Origin: Lachnospiraceae bacterium
Lineage (GTDB): Bacteria > Bacillota > Clostridia > Lachnospirales > Lachnospiraceae
DNA: 15,073 bases
Direction: 5' to 3'
NCBI GenBank assembly: GCA_017420605.1
Contig: JAFOIS010000083.1
Span: forward strand, 1-15,073
A program made the position numbers and the translations under genes. Shown piece by piece: positions 639 to 14,548 of the stretch. Positions within the stretch are counted from its first letter, which is position 1. Every line of letters starts with the position of its first letter. The notes below the pieces were generated by a model, which saw nothing but the letters and a program-made list of their open reading frames with translations, did not search any database and was not told the DNA's origin.

Positions 639-3119
639 ATGGCTGATAAGTTTGACACGAAAGAGTTTCTCAACGAAGTAGAAGTAAATACGCGCCGGTT
701 CTGCACCACAAGCTTTGACGACGCGTCGACACACCAGAAATACATCGGCGTCGCGGCCGAGATCGAAGACGAGATCATTGACAACTGGATGGCCACGCAG
801 AGGGCCTTCGAAGAACAGCATCCGAAGACGGTTTACTACCTTTCCATGGAATTCCTGGTCGGGCGCGCGCTCGGCAACAACCTCCTGAACCTCGGGATCT
901 ATGACGAAGTGCGCGACGCGCTCGCGGAACGCGGCGTGGATCTTGCGGAACTGGAGGAAGAGGAAGCGGAACCGGCGCTCGGCAACGGCGGCCTCGGACG
1001 GCTCGCGGCCTGTTTCCTCGACGCGCTCGCGACGGGCGGCTACGCGGCCTACGGCTGCGGTATCCGGTATCATTACGGGATGTTCCGGCAGAAGATCCAG
1101 GACGGCTTCCAGGTGGAAAAGCCGGACGACTGGCTCAAGAGCTACTATCCGTTTGAACTCAAGCGCCCGGAACTTGCCAAGGAGATCCGGTTCGGCGGCA
1201 ATACCCGTACGGAATTCGACCCGGTGCTCGGCAAGAACAAGTTCCTTTACGAGAATTACACGGCGGTCATCGCGGTCCCGTACGATATGCCGATCGTCGG
1301 TTACAAGAACTGCGTGGTCGATACGCTCCGGCTGTGGGACGCCGAGGCGGTCAACAATTTCGAGCTGGATTCGTTCGACAAGGGCGAATACGACAAGGCG
1401 GTCGAGCAGGAGAACCTCGCGCGGACGATCACGAACGTGCTGTATCCGAACGACAACCATCCGTCCGGCAAGGAGCTGCGCCTCAAGCAGCAGTACTTCT
1501 TCATTTCCGCGTCGCTCCAGACGGCGGTCGAGAAGTTCGTGCAGCGCTACGGCGATGATTTCTCGCGTTTCCCGGAGAAGGTCGCGTTCCAGATGAACGA
1601 TACGCATCCGTCGATGGTCGTGCCGGAACTGATGCGGATCCTGATGGACGACTACGGCCTCGAGTGGGACGACGCCTGGGCGGTGACCACGATGTCCTGC
1701 GCCTATACGAACCATACGATCATGCAGGAAGCGCTCGAAAAATGGCCGATCGACCTGATGAAGACGCTGCTTCCGCGTGTGTATCAGATCATCGAGGAGA
1801 TCGACCGGCGCTTCAAGGCCGAGATCGAGGCGCGCTACCCCGGCGATATCGCCCGGCGCGAGCGCATGGCGATCCTGGTCGGCGGCCAGGTGCGGATGGC
1901 GTATCTTGCGATCGTCGGCGGCCATTCGGTCAACGGCGTTGCGGAACTGCACACCGAGATCCTCAAGTCGAACGTGCTGCGCGATTTTTATGAAATGATG
2001 CCGGAGAAATTCTCGAACAAGACGAACGGCATCACGCAGCGCCGTTTCCTCCTGCACGGGAACCCGGACCTTGCGGCATTCGTGACGAAGAAGGTCGGCG
2101 ACGGCTGGATCACGGATCTTTCGGTGATCGCGGGCCTGAAGAAATACGCGGACGATCCGGAGACGCTCCGGGAATTCGCGGCGATCAAGAGGAAAAACAA
2201 GGAACGCCTGGCGGCGTATATCCTGGAGCACAACCACGTCGCGGTCGATCCGGATTCGATCTTCGACGTCCAGGTCAAGAGGCTCCATGAGTACAAACGG
2301 CAGCTGCTCAATATCCTGCACGTGATGTATCTGTACGGCGAACTGAAGAGAAATCCGGGCATGGATTTCTATCCGCGGACCTTCATTTTCGGCGCGAAGG
2401 CGTCGGCCGGCTATAAGATCGCGAAGAACATCATCAAGCTCATCACGACGGTCGCTGACCGCGTGAACAACGATCCGGACATGCAGGGGCGCATGAAGGT
2501 GGTCTTCATCGAGAACTACCGCGTCTCCAACGGCGAGATCATTTTCGCCGCCGCGGACGTTTCCGAGCAGATCTCGACCGCGTCCAAGGAGGCGTCCGGT
2601 ACCGGCAACATGAAATTCATGCTGAACGGCGCGGTGACGATCGGCACGATGGACGGCGCGAACGTCGAGATCGTGCGGGAAGTCGGAGAGGAGAACGCCG
2701 TGATCTTCGGCCTGTCCTCCGACGACGTCATCCGCATGGAGAAAGACGGCAGCTATGATCCGCGGACGATCTGGCGCAGTGACGAGGGCCTCCGGAACGT
2801 TCTGGAGGGGCTGATCGACGGCAGCTGGGCGGAAGACCGGACGCTGTTCCGTCCGATCTACGACTCGCTCCTTTCCGGCGGCTGGGCGGATCCGTATTTC
2901 ATTCTCGCGGATTTCCGTTCCTATGCCGACGCGCAGAAGAGGATCGAGGAAGCGTACCGCGACCGTCGGCGCTGGGTGAAGATGGCGTTCATGAATACCG
3001 CGTGCGCAGGCAAGTTCTCCGCGGACCGTACGATCCGCGAGTATGTGGATGATATCTGGCATCTGAAGAGCATTACCGTGCCGGAAGATACAGAAGAAAA
3101 ATGGATGATCCGTTCATAA
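639..3119 (+). CDS. glgP: Glycogen/starch/alpha-glucan phosphorylase
   Basis: This cytoplasmic pyridoxal-phosphate enzyme (GT35 family) splits alpha-1,4-glucans with phosphate to release glucose-1-phosphate. At 826 residues it has the usual bacterial length. Family landmarks are present in order: YYLSMEFLVGRALGNNLLNL near residues 67-86; ALGNGGLGRLAACFLDALAT near 110-130; the VKRLHEYKRQLLN block at 546-558; and the cofactor motif EASGTGNMKFMLNG, in which Lys659 is the expected Schiff-base lysine. The sequence is intact. The ATG at 639 is preceded by an A-rich leader with only a weak ribosome binding site (GAAAGA, 625-630), but the protein begins where family members begin. It follows ileS and precedes the TPR/ATPase gene; glgA, glgB and glgC are not nearby. 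Cotranscription with ileS or the downstream genes is possible. Confidence 0.96.
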   Translation: MADKFDTKEFLNEVEVNTRRFCTTSFDDASTHQKYIGVAAEIEDEIIDNWMATQRAFEEQHPKTVYYLSMEFLVGRALGNNLLNLGIYDEVRDALAERGVDLAELEEEEAEPALGNGGLGRLAACFLDALATGGYAAYGCGIRYHYGMFRQKIQDGFQVEKPDDWLKSYYPFELKRPELAKEIRFGGNTRTEFDPVLGKNKFLYENYTAVIAVPYDMPIVGYKNCVVDTLRLWDAEAVNNFELDSFDKGEYDKAVEQENLARTITNVLYPNDNHPSGKELRLKQQYFFISASLQTAVEKFVQRYGDDFSRFPEKVAFQMNDTHPSMVVPELMRILMDDYGLEWDDAWAVTTMSCAYTNHTIMQEALEKWPIDLMKTLLPRVYQIIEEIDRRFKAEIEARYPGDIARRERMAILVGGQVRMAYLAIVGGHSVNGVAELHTEILKSNVLRDFYEMMPEKFSNKTNGITQRRFLLHGNPDLAAFVTKKVGDGWITDLSVIAGLKKYADDPETLREFAAIKRKNKERLAAYILEHNHVAVDPDSIFDVQVKRLHEYKRQLLNILHVMYLYGELKRNPGMDFYPRTFIFGAKASAGYKIAKNIIKLITTVADRVNNDPDMQGRMKVVFIENYRVSNGEIIFAAADVSEQISTASKEASGTGNMKFMLNGAVTIGTMDGANVEIVREVGEENAVIFGLSSDDVIRMEKDGSYDPRTIWRSDEGLRNVLEGLIDGSWAEDRTLFRPIYDSLLSGGWADPYFILADFRSYADAQKRIEEAYRDRRRWVKMAFMNTACAGKFSADRTIREYVDDIWHLKSITVPEDTEEKWMIRS

Positions 3120-3137
3120 CGGGAGATGGATCCCGTT
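3118..3137 (+). other. Hairpin overlapping the glgP stop codon, weak terminator candidate
   Basis: AACGGGA (3118-3124) pairs perfectly with TCCCGTT (3131-3137) around a six-base loop. Only three T bases follow the stem, so termination would be inefficient. It may mark a partial boundary between glgP and the next gene, or stabilise the 3' end. Confidence 0.35.
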
Positions 3138-3183
3138 TCGAATAAAGAGACCCGGGCACAGCAAAGCCAAAGAGGTGGGAAAG

Positions 3184-6100
3184 TTGGATAAAGAAGAATA
3201 CAGGGTACGACTGGAGACGATCAGAACACTGGCGGATGAAGGGGATTTCAAAGCCGCCTCGTCAGTTGCCGACACGGTGGACTGGAAACGCGTCAAGAGC
3301 GTAAGGACCCTCTGCATGATCGGCGAGATCTACGAGGCGAACGGCCGGTTCGAGGATACGAGAAGGATCCTCGAATATGCCTACTGGCGCACTTCGATCA
3401 GCAAGACGGTCCTGTACCGGCTGACGGAGATCAATATCCGGATCGGCGATTTCGACGGCGCGCAGAAGTACTGCGACGAATTTGAGATCGTCTCTCCGAA
3501 GGATCCCACGAAATACCTCCTCCGTTATAAGCTTATGAGCGCCCGTAAGGATCCGCTCGCCGATCAGATCCGCGTCCTTGAAAACTACAAGGACGAGGAG
3601 TTCACGGAACGGTGGGGCTGGGAACTGGCCCGGCGCTACCAGGAGAACGGCGATAACGCGAAATGCATCGCGCTCTGCGACGAAATCATCCTCTGGTTCG
3701 CCGAAGGAAAATACGTTACCCGCGCGATGGAACTGAAGAACCGCATCCTGCCGCTGGCCGCGCAGGATGAACTTGACGTTCATACGCCGCAGGAGGAAGA
3801 GGCCGCGGAACCCGCCGCCGAAGAAACGGAGACCGTCTCTGCGGACGACCGTGCCGGAGAAGCGGAGGATATCGCGGAGGAAGCCGGAAAAGAGAAGGAT
3901 ACCGAGCCCGACGACGGCTATACGCCGGAAGGGTACGGGACCACGCCGGACGACCATCAGGGATACGATTATATCAGCAGACCGGAAGCCGAAGAAGCCG
4001 GTCTTTCGGAAGTCCTCTCCGAGATCGAGGAGGAAGAACGCCTTGCGAAGCAGGAGGCGGCGGAGCGTGCCGAACGGCGCCGCGGCGGAAAAGAACGCCG
4101 GGGGCTTTTCGGAGGCGCGAAGCTGGCCGACAGTTTCCGTGCTGTTTTCGCGACGCTGCGCAGCGGCGGGACAGCCGACGAGGATGAGGAGGAAGACGAA
4201 GACGAAGAAGAAGCCGTCCGCTCCGAGATCCCTGTCAGAGTAACGGACAGAAAAGAAGAAGTGCACGTACCGCAGCTCGAGCCCGAGACCGACAGCGAGA
4301 TCCGGATCGAGGAAGAAACGCAGGATCTGGAAGAACAGATCACGCTCGCGTCGTATCTCGACGATACCATGTCCGCGGATACACTGGACATCGACGCTTA
4401 CCTTGCCGAGACCAGTGCCGGTATGGCCAGCGAGATCGCGAGCGGCCAGTACGAGCAGGTGAATACGCTTCCGTATGAAAAGGCGGAAGAGGCGCCCGCG
4501 GAAGAAGAATATACGGAAGAAGTATACGCGGACGGCGAAGAGGAGCCTGTTTACGCGGAAGAGGCCGGCGGGGAGGAGATCCCGGCCGAAGATACGGAAG
4601 AAGCATACGCGGAAGAAGCGGCGGAGACGGAATACACGGAAGAAGCCGCGGAAACGGAAGAGGAAGCGCTTCCCGAATACGACGCGCAGAACGATGAAAA
4701 TCTTGAACCGTACGCGGCCTATCTGGAAGATATCGATATCACGCTTCCGGCAGAGGAAGACATAGACCAGGCGCAGCTGATGGAAGCGGCCGCGGCATAT
4801 TCCGCCGGTGAGCTTCCGGAAGATACGGAAGAGGAGATCGCGGCCCTCACGGAGGAAGAAGAGTCCGCCGGGATCGCGGCGGAAGCGGAAGCGCCAGCGG
4901 AAGCGGAAGAGGCGGCGGAAGACTGGTCAGATTTTGCAATGGAAACCGTCGCGGAAGCGGAGGAAGAGACCGCGGACACCGCGGAGGAAGAGACCGCGGA
5001 GGAAGAAGCCGAGGCGGCCGATCTTGAGGAGGAAGCCCTGGCCGGCCGGTCCGGAGAGGAAGAACTCGACCCGCTTGAAAAACTGTACGGACGCGAGACC
5101 GACGAAAGTCTCGGGCTTACGCAGACGTTCAGTTTCTCCGAGGAGCTGAAAAAGGCGTTCTCGCGCATCCGCAGTTCCCTTACGGAGAGCGAGGCGGCAA
5201 GACACCGCCGTGCGGTCAATCAGACGCTGAAGTCAGCCGGCGTCTCCCCGGAGGAGGAAGATACCGAAGAGGAGGCCGCAAACGAGGCCGTTATCGAAGA
5301 CGAGGCGGAAGAAGCCGCGGAAGAGACCGTGGAAGAGGCCGTCGAAGAAGCGGCGGAGGAAGCTGCGGAAGAAGCTGCGGAAGAGCCGTCTCTTGTGGAC
5401 ATTCTCGAAGAGGAGCCGGAGCGGTTCACCTTCCAGCCGGTCGAACCGCGCGCGTTCGATGAAACGGAAAAGGATATCTTCACCTACTTTACAAAGATCC
5501 CGGGCATGCGCGAGCAGATCACAAGCGCGCTTGCGGACGTACATAACAATACGGGAGACAAGACCTCCCGTTCCGGCAATATCATGATCATCGGCCGGGC
5601 CGGCGCCGGCAAATCGCGCCTGTCCGACGCCATGATGGTCTCGATCTGCCGGGATCTCGGCATTACGGCGGCCCGCTCGGCACGCCTTACCGCGGAAGCA
5701 TTGAACGAAAAGAACCCGGCGGAGGTGATCGCGAAGCTTGCGGGCGGATTCCTGATGATCGAGGATGCCGGCAGCCTGTCGGACGAGACCGTATCGCGCC
5801 TGCTCCGCGCAATGGAATTCCGCACGGACGACCTTGTCGTCATGCTCGAGGATGAAAAAGCGGATCTGAAGACGCTTCTCGGAAGACATCCCGAGATCGA
5901 GCAGAAATTTACCTCCACCATCGTCATTCCGGTCTTCACCAACGACGAGCTGGTCACTTTCGCGCGGACCTATGCGCGCGAGAAGGGCTACCGGATGGAT
6001 GAGATGGGGATCCTCGCGCTGTATACCATGATCGGCGATAACCAGACCGCGACGGAACCCGTGACGGTCGGCCGTGTCAAGGAAATGATGGACGCCGCGA

Positions 6101-6207
6101 TCAGCCGCGCGGACACGACGGCGCGCCGGATCGGCCGCCGCATATCGAAGCGTTCGGTGGATAAGGACGGCCGCATCCTGCTGCACGAGCGGGACTTTGA
6201 TTTCTGA
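3184..6207 (+). CDS. TPR-like / acidic low-complexity / AAA-type ATPase protein of unknown function
   Basis: The role is unknown. I chose TTG 3184 as start because AGAGGTGG (3171-3178) is an ideal ribosome binding site five bases upstream. The GTG at 3175 lies inside that site. The resulting N-terminus, (M)DKEEYR, matches what I recall of Lachnospiraceae homologues. The product has 1,007 residues. Residues 1 to about 195 form paired helices resembling TPR repeats. Residues from about 200 to 690 are dominated by Glu and Ala, with an almost pure Asp/Glu run and EEAA tandem repeats, probably disordered or extended helix. A basic helical patch lies near 295-330. The C-terminal third is a P-loop domain with Walker A GRAGAGKS (804-811) and Walker B FLMIEDA (856-862). 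It is followed by a lid-like region reminiscent of CbxX/SpoVK AAA+ proteins (inference). No signal peptide or membrane segment is evident. The stop overlaps rsmA by one base, implying coupled translation. Confidence 0.85.
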   Translation: MDKEEYRVRLETIRTLADEGDFKAASSVADTVDWKRVKSVRTLCMIGEIYEANGRFEDTRRILEYAYWRTSISKTVLYRLTEINIRIGDFDGAQKYCDEFEIVSPKDPTKYLLRYKLMSARKDPLADQIRVLENYKDEEFTERWGWELARRYQENGDNAKCIALCDEIILWFAEGKYVTRAMELKNRILPLAAQDELDVHTPQEEEAAEPAAEETETVSADDRAGEAEDIAEEAGKEKDTEPDDGYTPEGYGTTPDDHQGYDYISRPEAEEAGLSEVLSEIEEEERLAKQEAAERAERRRGGKERRGLFGGAKLADSFRAVFATLRSGGTADEDEEEDEDEEEAVRSEIPVRVTDRKEEVHVPQLEPETDSEIRIEEETQDLEEQITLASYLDDTMSADTLDIDAYLAETSAGMASEIASGQYEQVNTLPYEKAEEAPAEEEYTEEVYADGEEEPVYAEEAGGEEIPAEDTEEAYAEEAAETEYTEEAAETEEEALPEYDAQNDENLEPYAAYLEDIDITLPAEEDIDQAQLMEAAAAYSAGELPEDTEEEIAALTEEEESAGIAAEAEAPAEAEEAAEDWSDFAMETVAEAEEETADTAEEETAEEEAEAADLEEEALAGRSGEEELDPLEKLYGRETDESLGLTQTFSFSEELKKAFSRIRSSLTESEAARHRRAVNQTLKSAGVSPEEEDTEEEAANEAVIEDEAEEAAEETVEEAVEEAAEEAAEEAAEEPSLVDILEEEPERFTFQPVEPRAFDETEKDIFTYFTKIPGMREQITSALADVHNNTGDKTSRSGNIMIIGRAGAGKSRLSDAMMVSICRDLGITAARSARLTAEALNEKNPAEVIAKLAGGFLMIEDAGSLSDETVSRLLRAMEFRTDDLVVMLEDEKADLKTLLGRHPEIEQKFTSTIVIPVFTNDELVTFARTYAREKGYRMDEMGILALYTMIGDNQTATEPVTVGRVKEMMDAAISRADTTARRIGRRISKRSVDKDGRILLHERDFDF
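5308..5385 (+). repeat. In-gene 12-base tandem repeat encoding EEAA units
   Basis: About six and a half consecutive 12-base units begin at 5308, 5320, 5332, 5344, 5356, 5368 and 5380. Each encodes Glu-Glu followed by two residues that are mostly Ala or Val. Adjacent units at 5356-5379 are nearly identical at DNA level (GAAGAAGCTGCG type), while outer units differ at third positions. This suggests repeat-unit expansion within the acidic linker. It is not a CRISPR or mobile repeat. Confidence 0.8.
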
Positions 6208-10974: not shown

Positions 10975-10990
10975 CCACAATATATAGTTT
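10975..10990 (+). promoter_or_regulatory. NrdR-type operator box 1
   Basis: CCACAATATATAGTTT contains the core CAATATATAG (10978-10987), an exact match to the core CwAtATaTwG of the NrdR box consensus as I know it. NrdR is the zinc-ribbon/ATP-cone repressor of ribonucleotide reductase genes. The box lies upstream of the nrdD promoter and pairs with a second copy 31 bases downstream. Confidence 0.85.
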
Positions 10991-11005
10991 TTACACTTAT
11001 TTTTG

Positions 11006-11021
11006 ATACAAGATATTGACC
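11006..11021 (+). promoter_or_regulatory. NrdR-type operator box 2, overlapping the -35
   Basis: ATACAAGATATTGACC contains the core CAAGATATTG (11009-11018), which matches the NrdR core at nine of ten positions. Its core starts 31 bases after the core of box 1, about three DNA turns, which is the usual spacing of paired NrdR boxes. Its right edge covers the -35 hexamer, so bound repressor should block RNA polymerase. Confidence 0.82.
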
Positions 11022-11044
11022 TTCCACCCGGCAAGTGCTATTGT
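11016..11044 (+). promoter_or_regulatory. nrdD promoter with extended -10
   Basis: TTGACC (11016-11021) matches the -35 consensus at five of six positions. After a 17-base spacer comes TATTGT (11039-11044), which is preceded by TGC to form an extended -10 (TGnTATTGT). Transcription would start near 11051. The 38-base leader ends in AGGGGGAAGGA (11073-11083), ahead of the ATG at 11089. No riboswitch-like structure fits in so short a leader. Confidence 0.75.
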
Positions 11045-11088: not shown

Positions 11089-13554
11089 ATGTATCAGGTA
11101 GTAAAACGCGACGGCAAAATTGCGGAATTCGATATCAGCAAGATCAGCACGGCTATCACAAAGGCCTTCGAGGCCCTGGGAAAACAGTATCATCCCAGCG
11201 TGATCGAGCTGATCTCGCTTCATGTTTCGGCGGATTTCGAGAGCAAGGTAAAGGACGGCAAGGTCACGGTCGAAGAGATCCAGGACTCCGTCGAAAAGGT
11301 GCTCTCCGAGTCCGGTTACGCGGATGTGGCGAAGGCCTACATCCTGTACCGCAAACAGCGTGAGAAGGTCCGTAACGTCAATTCCGCCCTTCTGAACTAT
11401 AAAGAACTGGTCGACAACTATCTTAAGATCAACGACTGGCGCGTGAAGGAAAACTCTACCGTCACGTATTCGGTCGGCGGTCTCATTCTGTCCAACTCCG
11501 GCGCCATCACGGCCAACTACTGGCTGAGCGAGGTCTATGATGAGGAAATCGCGGAAGCGCACCGCAGCGCGGCGATCCATCTGCACGACCTTTCCATGCT
11601 GACCGGCTACTGCGCCGGCTGGAGCCTCAAGCAGCTCATCCAGGAAGGTCTCGGCGGCGTACCCGGCAAGATCACGTCCTCCCCGGCCAGCCATCTTTCC
11701 ACCCTCTGCAACCAGATGGTCAACTTCCTCGGCATCATGCAGAATGAATGGGCCGGCGCACAGGCATTCTCGTCCTTCGACACCTATCTTGCGCCCTTTG
11801 TCCGCATCGACAATCTGTCCCAGAAGGAAGTCAAGCAGTGCATCCAGTCCTTCATTTACGGCGTGAATACGCCGAGCCGCTGGGGCACCCAGGCGCCGTT
11901 CTCGAACATCACGCTGGACTGGGTCGTTCCGAACGACCTGAAGAACCTTCCGGCGATCATCGGCGGCAAGGAAGTGGACTTCACCTACGGCGACTGCCAG
12001 AAGGAAATGGACATGGTCAACAAGGCCTTCATCGAGATCATGATCGAAGGCGATGCCAACGGACGCGGTTTCCAGTACCCGATCCCGACCTATTCCATTA
12101 CCCGCGACTTTGACTGGAGCGAGACCGAAAACAACAAGCTGCTCTTTGAAATGACCGCAAAATACGGCACGCCGTATTTCTCGAACTATATCAATTCCGA
12201 CATGGAACCGAGCGACGTCCGCTCCATGTGCTGCAGACTGCGTCTTGACCTTCGTGAGCTCCGCAAGAAATCCGGCGGCTTCTTCGGCTCCGGCGAATCG
12301 ACAGGCTCGATCGGCGTCGTGACCATCAACATGCCGCGGATCGCGTATCTTGCGAAGGATGAGGCGGACTTCTACAAGCGCCTCGACAACCTCATGGATA
12401 TCTCCGCGCGGAGCCTGAAGACCAAGCGTACGGTCATCACAAAGCTCCTCGAGCAGGGCCTCTATCCGTATACCAAGCGCTACCTCGGCACGTTCAGCAA
12501 CCACTTCTCGACGATCGGCCTCATCGGCATGAACGAAGCCGGCCTCAACGCGAAATGGCTGCGCGCCGACCTTACGGATCCGAAGGTCCAGCGGTTCACG
12601 CGCGACGTCCTGAACCACATGCGCGAGCGCCTGTCGGATTATCAGGAAATGTACGGCGACCTTTACAACCTCGAGGCAACGCCGGCGGAATCCACGACCT
12701 ACCGCTTCGCGAAGCACGACAAGGAACAGTTCCCGGACATCGTCACCGCGAACATGAACGGCACGCCGTATTATACGAATTCCTCGCACCTGCCGGTCGG
12801 CTACACGGAGGACATCTTCTCCGCGCTCGACATCCAGGACGATCTGCAGACGCTGTACACCTCCGGCACGGTCTTCCACGCCTTCCTCGGCGAGAAGCTT
12901 CCGGACTGGAAAGCGGCCGCGAACCTGGTCCGCAAGATCGCGGAGAACTACAAGCTGCCGTATTATACGATGTCTCCGACCTATTCGGTCTGCAAGAACC
13001 ACGGGTATCTGACCGGCGAGCAGTTCGTCTGCCCGTACTGCGGAGAGAAGACGGAAGTCTACAGCCGCATCACCGGCTACTACCGTCCGGTCCAGAACTG
13101 GAACGACGGCAAGGCGCAGGAATACAGGGACCGCCGCGTCTATGAGATCGGCCGTTCGCACCTCCGCCACACGGGCCCGAACCCGGCACCGGTCGATCTG
13201 CCGCGCGCAGAGGCCGTGATCCCGGCCGCGGCAGCCGCTCTGGCACCGCAGGCAGCACCGGCAGAAGCCGCGCCGAAGGCAGCGCCTGTTCCGGCACCGG
13301 CCGCAGCGGAAGCAAAGTGCGCCGACGCGAACGTCCTGCTTTTCAAGACCCCGACCTGCCCGAACTGCAAGGCGGCCGCGGCGCTTCTTGACCGCGCGGG
13401 TGTTGCCTACACGGCCCTTAACGCGAACGAGGAAAAGGAACTTGTCGAAAAGTTCGGCGTAAAGCAGGCGCCGACCCTGGTCCTGATCAACGGGGATTCG
13501 TTCGAGAAATACCGCGGCGTCTCCGATATCAAGGGCTGGTTAATGAAGAAATAA
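11089..13554 (+). CDS. nrdD: Anaerobic (class III) ribonucleoside-triphosphate reductase with fused C-terminal redoxin domain
   Basis: This enzyme makes deoxynucleotides from ribonucleoside triphosphates without oxygen, using a glycyl radical installed by the activase NrdG. The 821-residue product begins with an ATP-cone (about 1-95) opening with YQVVKRDGKIAEFD. The reductase core includes YCAGWSL (Cys175) and MCCRLRLD (Cys381, Cys382), the likely thiyl and reducing cysteines. A zinc site of Cys635, His638, Cys648 and Cys651 follows, and then the radical loop RITGYYRPVQNW with Gly663. Unusually, an Ala/Pro-rich linker (about 697-743) leads to a glutaredoxin/NrdH-like domain with CPNC (Cys757, Cys760) and a QAPTLVLI cis-proline segment. 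Formate-using NrdD proteins lack such a domain. The fusion points to the thioredoxin-reducible NrdD2-like type (inference). The gene has its own NrdR-controlled promoter. nrdG does not follow; a thioredoxin-reductase-like gene does. Confidence 0.95.
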   Translation: MYQVVKRDGKIAEFDISKISTAITKAFEALGKQYHPSVIELISLHVSADFESKVKDGKVTVEEIQDSVEKVLSESGYADVAKAYILYRKQREKVRNVNSALLNYKELVDNYLKINDWRVKENSTVTYSVGGLILSNSGAITANYWLSEVYDEEIAEAHRSAAIHLHDLSMLTGYCAGWSLKQLIQEGLGGVPGKITSSPASHLSTLCNQMVNFLGIMQNEWAGAQAFSSFDTYLAPFVRIDNLSQKEVKQCIQSFIYGVNTPSRWGTQAPFSNITLDWVVPNDLKNLPAIIGGKEVDFTYGDCQKEMDMVNKAFIEIMIEGDANGRGFQYPIPTYSITRDFDWSETENNKLLFEMTAKYGTPYFSNYINSDMEPSDVRSMCCRLRLDLRELRKKSGGFFGSGESTGSIGVVTINMPRIAYLAKDEADFYKRLDNLMDISARSLKTKRTVITKLLEQGLYPYTKRYLGTFSNHFSTIGLIGMNEAGLNAKWLRADLTDPKVQRFTRDVLNHMRERLSDYQEMYGDLYNLEATPAESTTYRFAKHDKEQFPDIVTANMNGTPYYTNSSHLPVGYTEDIFSALDIQDDLQTLYTSGTVFHAFLGEKLPDWKAAANLVRKIAENYKLPYYTMSPTYSVCKNHGYLTGEQFVCPYCGEKTEVYSRITGYYRPVQNWNDGKAQEYRDRRVYEIGRSHLRHTGPNPAPVDLPRAEAVIPAAAAALAPQAAPAEAAPKAAPVPAPAAAEAKCADANVLLFKTPTCPNCKAAAALLDRAGVAYTALNANEEKELVEKFGVKQAPTLVLINGDSFEKYRGVSDIKGWLMKK

Positions 13555-13578: not shown

Positions 13579-13614
13579 GCTGCGTCCCGCTTCCGTGCGG
13601 GGCGCAGCCTTTTT
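13579..13614 (+). terminator. Intrinsic terminator or attenuator between nrdD and the flavoprotein gene
   Basis: A 12-bp stem with one T-G wobble (13579-13590 with 13597-13608) encloses a TTCCGT loop and is followed by CTTTTTC. It ends only three bases before the ribosome binding site of the downstream gene (13618-13626). I see no promoter between this hairpin and that gene. Readthrough would therefore be needed for expression from the nrdD promoter, and the hairpin may set a lower dose of the flavoprotein. Confidence 0.88.
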
Positions 13615-13633: not shown

Positions 13634-14548
13634 ATGTATGACGTGATCGTAGTCGGCGGAGGACCGGCCGGCATGACGGCGGCGCTCTATGCGCAGCGGA
13701 ACGGCAAGAGCGCACTGGTGATCGAGAAGAGCGGGTTCGGCGGACAGATCACACATTCACCGAAGATCGAAAACTTCCCGGGTTTCGTTTCCATCAGCGG
13801 CAACGAACTCGCGGACAAGATGCTCGAGCAGATCCTTGCGCAGGGCGCGGAGATCGAATTCGAAACGGTCACCGGCGTGCGTACGGAAGACGGCGTCAAG
13901 GTGGTGGAAACGGAAGAGGGGAGCCGCTTCGAAGGCAGGAGCGTGATATTGGCGACCGGTGTGAAACACCGGCTCCTCGGACTTCCGGGCGAGGAAGAAC
14001 TCATCGGCGAAGGGATCTCCTTCTGCGCGGTCTGCGACGGGGATTTCTATGCGGGGAAGACCGTCGCGGTGATCGGCGGCGGCAATTCGGCGCTGCAGGA
14101 AGCGATCCTTCTCGCGGGCAAGTGCAAAGAAGTCATCATGCTGCAGGATCTGCCGTTCTTTACCGGCGAAGAAAAACTGCAGGAAGTCCTGTTCGCCTTC
14201 CCGAACGTCCGCGCTTATACCGGTGTCGGCGTCGCGGAATACCTGACCGGAGAGAACGGTCTTCGCGGCGTCCTTATGGAATACCGGGAAGGCGGCCGCC
14301 GGGAAGAGATCGCCTGCGACGGCGTCTTCGTCGCGATCGGCCTTATTCCGGAGAACGGCGCCTTTGCATCGAATGCGGATCTTGACGAACGCGGGTATTT
14401 CGACGCGGACGAAAGCTGTATGACGAAGACGCCGGGCGTTTTCGTCGCCGGTGACTGCCGCAGGAAAAACATCCGGCAGGTCACGACGGCGGCGTCCGAC
14501 GGCGCGACGGCCGCGCTGGCCGCCTGCCGGTACCTGAACGGACTGTAA
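13634..14548 (+). CDS. trxB: Thioredoxin-reductase-like FAD flavoprotein lacking the NADPH-phosphate motif
   Basis: Enzymes of this family pass electrons from a donor through FAD and a redox-active disulfide to thioredoxin-like proteins. The 304-residue product starts at ATG 13634, with AGGGAGGAG seven bases upstream. It has the FAD motif VVGGGPAGMTAA (6-17), a GFGGQI segment, the redox centre CAVCDG (Cys131, Cys134), the nucleotide-fold motif GGGNSA (148-153), and the C-terminal FAD motif GVFVAGDCR with RQVTTAASDG. In place of HRRxxxR, which binds the 2'-phosphate of NADPH in E. coli TrxB, it has LQDLPFFTG (170-178), with an acidic residue where arginine is expected. NADPH is therefore an unlikely donor. 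NADH, or ferredoxin as in clostridial ferredoxin-dependent flavin thioredoxin reductases, is more plausible (inference). Placement after the redoxin-fused nrdD suggests it recharges that enzyme. Confidence 0.88.
   Translation: MYDVIVVGGGPAGMTAALYAQRNGKSALVIEKSGFGGQITHSPKIENFPGFVSISGNELADKMLEQILAQGAEIEFETVTGVRTEDGVKVVETEEGSRFEGRSVILATGVKHRLLGLPGEEELIGEGISFCAVCDGDFYAGKTVAVIGGGNSALQEAILLAGKCKEVIMLQDLPFFTGEEKLQEVLFAFPNVRAYTGVGVAEYLTGENGLRGVLMEYREGGRREEIACDGVFVAIGLIPENGAFASNADLDERGYFDADESCMTKTPGVFVAGDCRRKNIRQVTTAASDGATAALAACRYLNGL

Follow-up and report, generated by a model that had tools for sequence, protein, structure and literature searches.

A gene on the 15,073-nucleotide contig JAFOIS010000083.1 of a Lachnospiraceae bacterium (GenBank assembly GCA_017420605.1; this whole stretch is called the window below) encodes NrdD, the class III ribonucleotide reductase (RNR), with a complete redoxin domain joined to its C-terminus. 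The NrdD-redoxin fusion itself is certain. We consider it quite probable that this protein is a double-cysteine class III RNR, probably controlled by NrdR, in which the tethered NrdH/thioredoxin-like redoxin acts as the immediate reductant. The gene, here called nrdD-grx, and its product have the following features (window coordinates):

11089..13554, + strand: nrdD-grx fusion gene, 821 aa, open reading frame from ATG to TAA, with Pfam and NCBIfam matches
11095..11364, + strand: ATP-cone, residues 3-92 (PF03477)
11449..13143, + strand: NrdD catalytic and glycyl-radical part, residues 121-685 (PF13597)
11611..11613, + strand: C175, the barrel cysteine, invariant in alignments A1 and A2
12226..12237, + strand: finger loop MCCR (380-383), double-cysteine type, from the alignments
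12673..12675, + strand: E529, aligned with T. maritima E495, putative proton donor
13075..13077, + strand: G663, glycyl-radical site in RITGYYR, invariant in A2, role assigned by family
13177..13329, + strand: variable linker, residues 697-747, Ala/Pro-rich in the window
13330..13551, + strand: redoxin domain, residues 748-821 (Pfam, profile search, AlphaFold2, Foldseek)
13357..13368, + strand: CPNC redox site, residues 757-760, from the alignment

The NrdD part scores 640.8 bits against PF13597, above the curated cut-off, and 518.5 bits against TIGR02487 (cut-off 326.35). The NF006126/PRK08270 model scores 1155.1 bits (cut-off 548) and spans residues 1-687 only, so that the C-terminal tail is extra to NrdD. 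On that tail, Glutaredoxin (PF00462) covers residues 749-802 with 31.9 bits (cut-off 22.9) and PF00085 is likewise above its cut-off; none of the NCBIfam redoxin models is, the best being TIGR02196 (28.6 bits, cut-off 88.55). AlphaFold2 gives the redoxin domain alone a complete thioredoxin-type fold (mean predicted local distance difference test score, pLDDT, 93.9), and in the full chain the block means are 77-88 for residues 751-820 and 50 for 741-750, with values below 50 across residues 704-746. The top Foldseek matches of the redoxin model are thioredoxins and protein disulfide isomerase (PDI) domains (best E 2.7e-5), and a profile search matched protein disulfide oxidoreductases, glutaredoxins, NrdH and thioredoxins; because these matches span several redoxin types, 'redoxin' is a safer name than 'glutaredoxin'. 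C175, C381 and C382 are invariant in both A1 (12 rows) and A2 (47 rows), as are C757 and C760 in A1 and in all A2 rows having the redoxin domain. The zinc-site cysteines C635, C648 and C651 are, with G663, invariant in A2, and P795 occupies the cis-proline position by homology. A sequence-only reading of this DNA had given the frame, coordinates and length exactly and had numbered C175, C381/C382, C757 and C760 correctly; its description of a class III NrdD with a complete C-terminal redoxin (CPNC, cis-proline) agrees with Pfam, NCBIfam and AlphaFold2.

How widespread is this arrangement? A search for NrdD proteins with a C-terminal redoxin, as that reading had proposed, shows the architecture to be common. 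Among 120 genomes of the same family, 63 have a strong match (above 1000 bits); all 63 loci were inspected, and the fused redoxin is present in 61, the exceptions being G032 and G079. The fusion also occurs in 79 of 80 named loci (the best 80 of 593 matching stretches), with the remaining one, L194, ending at a contig edge, and in 18 phage loci. In a class survey of 391 genomes, 126 matched at E <= 1e-100; frames are mostly about 790-860 aa in the 68-92%-identical group and mostly 690-735 aa in the 47-55%-identical group. Thirty survey loci, hand-picked and mostly with short frames (L102-L131), comprise three fused (L109-L111) and 27 unfused cases. The distinct fused proteins number 160 (63 survey, 79 named and 18 viral, with the window not counted). 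In a FastTree tree of 101 rows, which includes a sample of the fused ones, the fusion state needs nine changes, six of them forced by starred branches; one starred clade holds 27 unfused proteins, and the unfused rows nested elsewhere resemble losses. A single clean origin of the fusion was dropped on account of these nine changes, in a tree with several weak deep forks and long branches.

The pattern of conservation supports the view that the redoxin tail is kept under selection on a double-cysteine NrdD. The CxxC motif is retained in all 160 fused proteins: 152 have CPNC, five CPKC, one CHNC and one CPQC, and in the last, L232, CPNC is followed by an extra domain. An alignment of 32 redoxins (mean column identity 44%) has just five invariant residues, C, P, C, P and T, and in A2 the mean column identity is 0.89 for the core, 0.58 for the redoxin and 0.29 for the linker. 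The finger loop reads MCCR in 158 of the 160, with the other two unreadable (L214, a gene in pieces, and L237, with an insert). These counts, together with a thioredoxin reductase (TrxR)-like gene adjacent to nrdD-grx, support part of that reading's interpretation, the covalently attached redoxin on a double-cysteine NrdD. Among 95 aligned NrdDs, fused or unfused, C175, MCCR and E529 are found in every row except L034, without C175 and the finger-loop cysteines, and L035, without the latter. These two (L034:5060-7150; L035 on the minus strand) are unfused NrdD paralogues of about 690 aa, with DVRISYEGV and DIRSLTSIQ at the finger loop and the glycyl-radical motif kept. None of 15 cellular single-cysteine NrdDs, picked from the family sample mostly for long frames, carries a redoxin. 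With C175, C381/C382, E529 and M380, the window protein has the residues of the NrdD2 definition of Wei et al., quoted in PMC4493059 as a third active-site Cys plus Glu, with Met optional. Two side observations concern the redoxin. The redoxins of L190, L195 and L205 are variants that read HCPKC, and those of L190 and L195 also read QTPTI; an unusual flavoprotein (GNSAFVEx) adjoins each of the three, and redoxin and flavoprotein may be a co-varying pair. At L117 a stand-alone NrdH/YruB-like redoxin (4956-5198, minus strand) lies on the same strand as an unfused MCCR nrdD and about 220 bp or less from it.

The linker varies in composition and length. The sequence-only reading had seen an Ala/Pro swinging arm here, which does not hold as a family trait: Ala plus Pro make up 58% of the window's linker, compared to a median of 19% for 155 linkers of relatives (8 residues or longer), this content correlates with local GC (r = 0.69, n = 155), and six viral fused forms have linkers of just 1-10 residues. 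The Ala/Pro arm belongs to this one high-GC protein, and what is conserved is the presence of a variable linker. From the glycyl-radical loop to CxxC the distance is 34-137 residues (median 64; window 92). Of the 160 linkers, 33 contain at least two cysteines, and all but one of these 33 have a pair that falls within four positions (32 linkers, 6.8 expected under random placement). The pairs take the form CC, CAC, CEC or CxxC (L134, L141, L160, L175, L198, L214, L226 and others); because the 11 CC cases come from named loci close to the window, the events must be fewer than 32. The window's own linker has no close cysteine pair.

We propose a cycle of four steps for the fused enzyme. First, a separate NrdG2-type activase would put the glycyl radical on G663. 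Second, the radical would move to a finger-loop cysteine and one ribonucleotide would be reduced, leaving a C175-C381 or C175-C382 disulfide, as can be expected from the N. bacilliformis work described in PMC9669993. Third, the tethered redoxin (C757/C760) would reduce this disulfide, either in cis or across the dimer. Finally, the TrxR-like flavoprotein encoded next to nrdD-grx would re-reduce the oxidised redoxin; gene neighbourhood and motif suggest this step, and NADH or another donor is proposed because the flavoprotein is without the NADPH motif. On the sequence evidence, electron transfer from the tail to the active-site disulfide is likely, and a redox function of the tail is very likely.

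The surroundings of nrdD-grx in the window include the following elements:

10975..11021, + strand: NrdR-box-like pair, 10975-10990 (14/16) and 11006-11021 (11/16), 15-bp spacer, overlapping the promoter
11016..11044, + strand: sigma-70-like promoter TTGACC-17-TATTGT, a consensus match only
13579..13608, + strand: intrinsic-terminator-like hairpin between nrdD-grx and the flavoprotein gene
13634..14548, + strand: thioredoxin-reductase-like flavoprotein without the HRR 2'-phosphate motif (TIGR01292)

The boxes were scored against the NrdR-box consensus. Sites of this kind (at least 13/16, no more than 300 bp upstream) occur at 104 of 156 fused loci, compared to 1.7 expected from mononucleotide shuffling, and a spacing of 15-16 bp is typical according to PMC12051234. 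The window gene is probably under NrdR control. As for the flavoprotein, it scores 302.6 bits against TIGR01292, below the cut-off of 343.45, and with LQDLPFFTGEEK standing where HRRxxxR would be it does not qualify as an NADPH-TrxR. By sequence, the solved structure closest to it is 7jyp (251 bits), a Thermosipho enzyme that likewise has no HRR; a ferredoxin-dependent flavin thioredoxin reductase (FFTR), suggested by the missing HRR, was dropped for this reason. The T. maritima enzyme prefers NADH, as stated in PMC5627308. The idea of a reductase dedicated to the fused redoxin was also dropped, since the flavoprotein is the only strong TrxR match in its genome (302 bits; next 89) and a free thioredoxin is encoded there too.

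At 56 of the 73 named fused loci with enough DNA, nrdD is followed within 1 kb by a TrxR-like gene on its own strand; the same holds for 6 of 59 survey fused loci and for none of 31 survey unfused loci. The pooled association (62/132 versus 0/31) gives p = 5e-8 and the survey alone p = 0.09, which is not significant; both values overstate the significance, because the rows are related. A crude scan of residues 130-220 in the 62 adjacent flavoproteins finds 48 without HRR and 14 with it, and a stricter motif 46 without, 13 with and three ambiguous. An NrdG2-like gene lies no more than 1 kb upstream at 64 of 70 named and 7 of 59 survey fused loci; the counts for NrdG at unfused survey loci are 5 of 29 on the upstream side and 21 of 31 on the downstream side. 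Elsewhere in the window (3175-6207, + strand) is a gene for a protein of 1010 aa, rich in Glu and Ala, whose C-terminal part is P-loop-like; it matches nothing in Pfam at E 0.001.

Phage relatives extend the picture. IMG/VR yielded 32 relatives, of which 18 distinct ones are fused, and MT835493.1, a 57-kb faecal phage record, has a full-length copy at 74.7%. Ten neighbouring proteins on six phage contigs match phage families, for example primase, exonuclease, dCMP deaminase, dNMP kinase, DNA methyltransferase and NrdG. Five phage forms (L221-L224 and L227) start where the ATP-cone ends or close to that point; they lack most or all of the cone and keep the redoxin. Some phage nrdD genes (L237, L238, L240-L243) are longer than usual or interrupted, and those of L237 and L243 match Intein_splicing weakly, with scores below the cut-off. 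In L218 and L232, two IMG/VR contigs with an identical gene (locus 2998-5604), the chain consists of ATP-cone, NrdD, redoxin and a domain like that of ferredoxin:thioredoxin reductase (FTR). The segment past the redoxin has the cysteine motifs CPC..CMC..CHC, and in L232 this segment alone scores 23.6 bits (cut-off 22) against FeThRed_B, the FTR catalytic chain; the whole chain does not reach E 0.001 with that model. The L232 segment and L234, both scanned, match phrog_38239, a family with no assigned function. The 79 frames of stand-alone relatives, which we call mini-FTRs, range from 59 to 223 aa with a median of 72; in an alignment of 39 members all six cysteines are invariant, and 38 match FeThRed_B at E <= 0.01. 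The solved matches of their profile are headed by 4tpu (E 2.2e-4), labelled Rubredoxin, a Methanosarcina ferredoxin:disulfide reductase; an unrelated DBF4 chain is second (E 0.004) and FTR chain 7pwe third (E 0.03). By these matches, phrog_38239 looks like a miniature FTR catalytic subunit. Two further mini-FTR frames are:

L213:5369-5584: mini-FTR frame right after a fused NrdD
L234:5255-5488: mini-FTR frame

With these two, the mini-FTR loci number 81 (79 plus L213 and L234; L246-L322 are among them) and contain 64 distinct frames. In 67 of the 81 an NrdD lies on the mini-FTR's strand within the fetched DNA, with finger loops that read NCCR (46), MCCR (15) or SCCR (4) or are unreadable (2), and in no case single-cysteine. 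Writing H for NrdH-like, D for NrdD, G for NrdG and F for mini-FTR, the gene orders are DF (33), HDF (21), HDGF (8), DGF (4), DFG (1), F alone (12) and GF (2). As a control, phage loci chosen by NrdD query were compared. Neither a mini-FTR nor a small redoxin lies beside any of the 59 single-cysteine NrdDs with a readable GCR, and no frame of at least 40 aa in all 70 single-cysteine-query loci, long frames included, matches the redoxin profile. The double-cysteine sets, which are not deduplicated and for which one query itself came from a mini-FTR locus, contain 84 loci with CCR; on that strand, 47 of these have a mini-FTR and 52 a small redoxin. The finger loop is unreadable at fourteen control loci; a mini-FTR is present at one of them, L378, which came from the single-cysteine query and whose gene is interrupted. 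The IMG/VR set, chosen regardless of mini-FTR, has a mini-FTR at 5 of 32 loci and a small redoxin at one of 32. The family is not exclusive to NrdD, since two plasmid homologues (NCBI annotation 'FTR catalytic domain-containing') have no nrdD annotated within 5 kb. The term FTR does not occur among the literature matches listed.

Does the window enzyme depend on formate? Its genome (2.33 Mb, 93.9% complete, 332 contigs) has one NrdD, no match to the class I/II RNR catalytic domain PF02867 and none to the PFL-type Gly_radical domain PF01228; as PF01228 also matches single-cysteine NrdD, neither PFL nor a single-cysteine NrdD was found. For the glutathione route there is no PF04262 match, other GshA types not having been searched. 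NrdG2 appears as a fragment at the end of contig C185 (TIGR02495 N-terminus, 41 positions, 60.5 bits), and nothing is over cut-off for TIGR02491. Across the family, PF01228 is matched in 111 of 120 genomes at E <= 0.001, 109 of them over cut-off. Eight of the nine genomes without it have a verified fused NrdD (G000, G001, G021, G039, G045, G050, G114 and G117), and the ninth, G109, only an N-terminal NrdD fragment. PF02867 matches among the nine are limited to G021, G050 (weak), G114 and G117, so these searches show no strongly matching RNR other than the fused NrdD in G000, G001, G039 and G045. Formate is probably dispensable in the window organism, formate independence of its enzyme being plausible. 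Gut clostridia and phages with the fused redoxin, which sometimes lies next to a gene that could recharge it, may draw the electrons for DNA synthesis from redox proteins and not from formate.

Several observations weigh against the tethered redoxin as the reductant in place of formate. Of the 61 family genomes in which the fusion was verified, 53 match PF01228, which does not fit a simple formate story, and the absences in the window's own genome are provisional because of its incompleteness and many contigs. The finger-loop Met and E529 are kept, so that the window sequence is compatible with formate use. At least seven MCCR relatives inside the fused clade are without the redoxin (L037, L039, L104-L108; L105 ends in SCTLC), which makes the redoxin dispensable somewhere. 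The hairpin at 13579-13608 weakens the case for an operon of nrdD-grx and the flavoprotein gene, the flavoprotein neighbour is rare among the survey fused loci (see above), and it is adjacent in none of 17 viral fused loci.

Perhaps the enzyme uses both reductants, formate and the tethered redoxin, according to conditions. This possibility overlaps the reading that we prefer, and we regard it as a minority one. MCCR and E529 would provide the components for both, which is the argument that PMC9669993 makes for this motif class: MCCR sequences appear to hold components for formate or thioredoxin, as do 83% of double-cysteine class III sequences, and clades with Glu and no Met (N. bacilliformis) are likely thioredoxin-only; T. 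maritima residue 495 is named there. The frequent PF01228 matches in genomes with the fusion fit this possibility as well, while the own genome without such a match does not, and formate use has no direct sign. It is less probable still that the redoxin protects or regulates, repairing oxidised cysteines or the zinc site after oxygen, with formate as the turnover reductant. The retained Met and Glu would be explained, and with PF01228 so common in the family formate could be available in most carriers. However, the own genome and seven other fused carriers are without PF01228, the redoxin and mini-FTR genes adjoin double-cysteine and not single-cysteine phage NrdDs, and the five phage forms without the ATP-cone region still keep the redoxin. 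A passive or decaying fusion, to which several nested losses and the variable linkers might point, is very improbable with CxxC present in every fused protein, phage versions included.

A broader idea seems to us evenly poised between right and wrong: the double-cysteine NrdDs of gut clostridia and their phages would form a formate-free lineage for deoxyribonucleoside triphosphate (dNTP) synthesis, in which the electron chain has been progressively built into the enzyme. The stages would run from separate NrdH and mini ferredoxin:disulfide reductase (phrog_38239), through the tethered redoxin with its flavoprotein, to the single four-domain phage chain. That phage polypeptide (ATP-cone, NrdD, redoxin, FTR-like) would take electrons straight from host ferredoxin, and the linker pair, in about a fifth of the fused proteins, would be an added relay like the C-terminal pair of class I/II enzymes.

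How ribonucleotides are reduced in anaerobes without an evident formate source is an open question for most class III enzymes, and an NrdD that carries its reductant makes that question directly testable with one purified chain and point mutants. The phage data give phrog_38239 a likely function, and suggest that some gut phages bring their own dNTP electron supply, some of them without the ATP-cone off-switch.

Among known systems, Methanosarcina barkeri NrdD3 works with NrdH and ferredoxin:disulfide reductase. It shares an NrdH-type donor with the systems described here, and its ferredoxin-driven reductase resembles the phage mini-FTR, but its components are separate proteins and its active-site residues are different, whereas the window protein is fused and has a flavoprotein neighbour. 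NrdH is listed for NrdD3 in a table of PMC9176816. One NrdD-Grx fusion was already noted in print in 2018; the literature search found no characterisation or later study of an NrdD-redoxin fusion, with a mention in Wei et al. 2014 being possible, and the word 'glutaredoxin' is absent from the main text of PMC9669993. The NrdDs of N. bacilliformis and T. maritima (NrdD2 of Wei et al.; NrdDh of RNRdb) share the double-cysteine finger loop and the Glu with the window protein, and use a protein reductant according to PMC4493059 and PMC9669993. They differ in having SCCR and a separate thioredoxin or protein factor, in contrast to MCCR, an ATP-cone and a fused redoxin in the window. Finally, in Facklamia ignava NrdB a Grx-type domain is, as in the window protein, covalently joined to an RNR component, and PMC6187632 shows this fused domain to be an efficient reductant. 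Facklamia ignava can make glutathione, whereas the window genome has no PF04262 match. In Facklamia ignava the domain sits at the N-terminus of the radical subunit, in a class I enzyme that is aerobic; in the window it sits at the C-terminus of the catalytic subunit of an anaerobic one.

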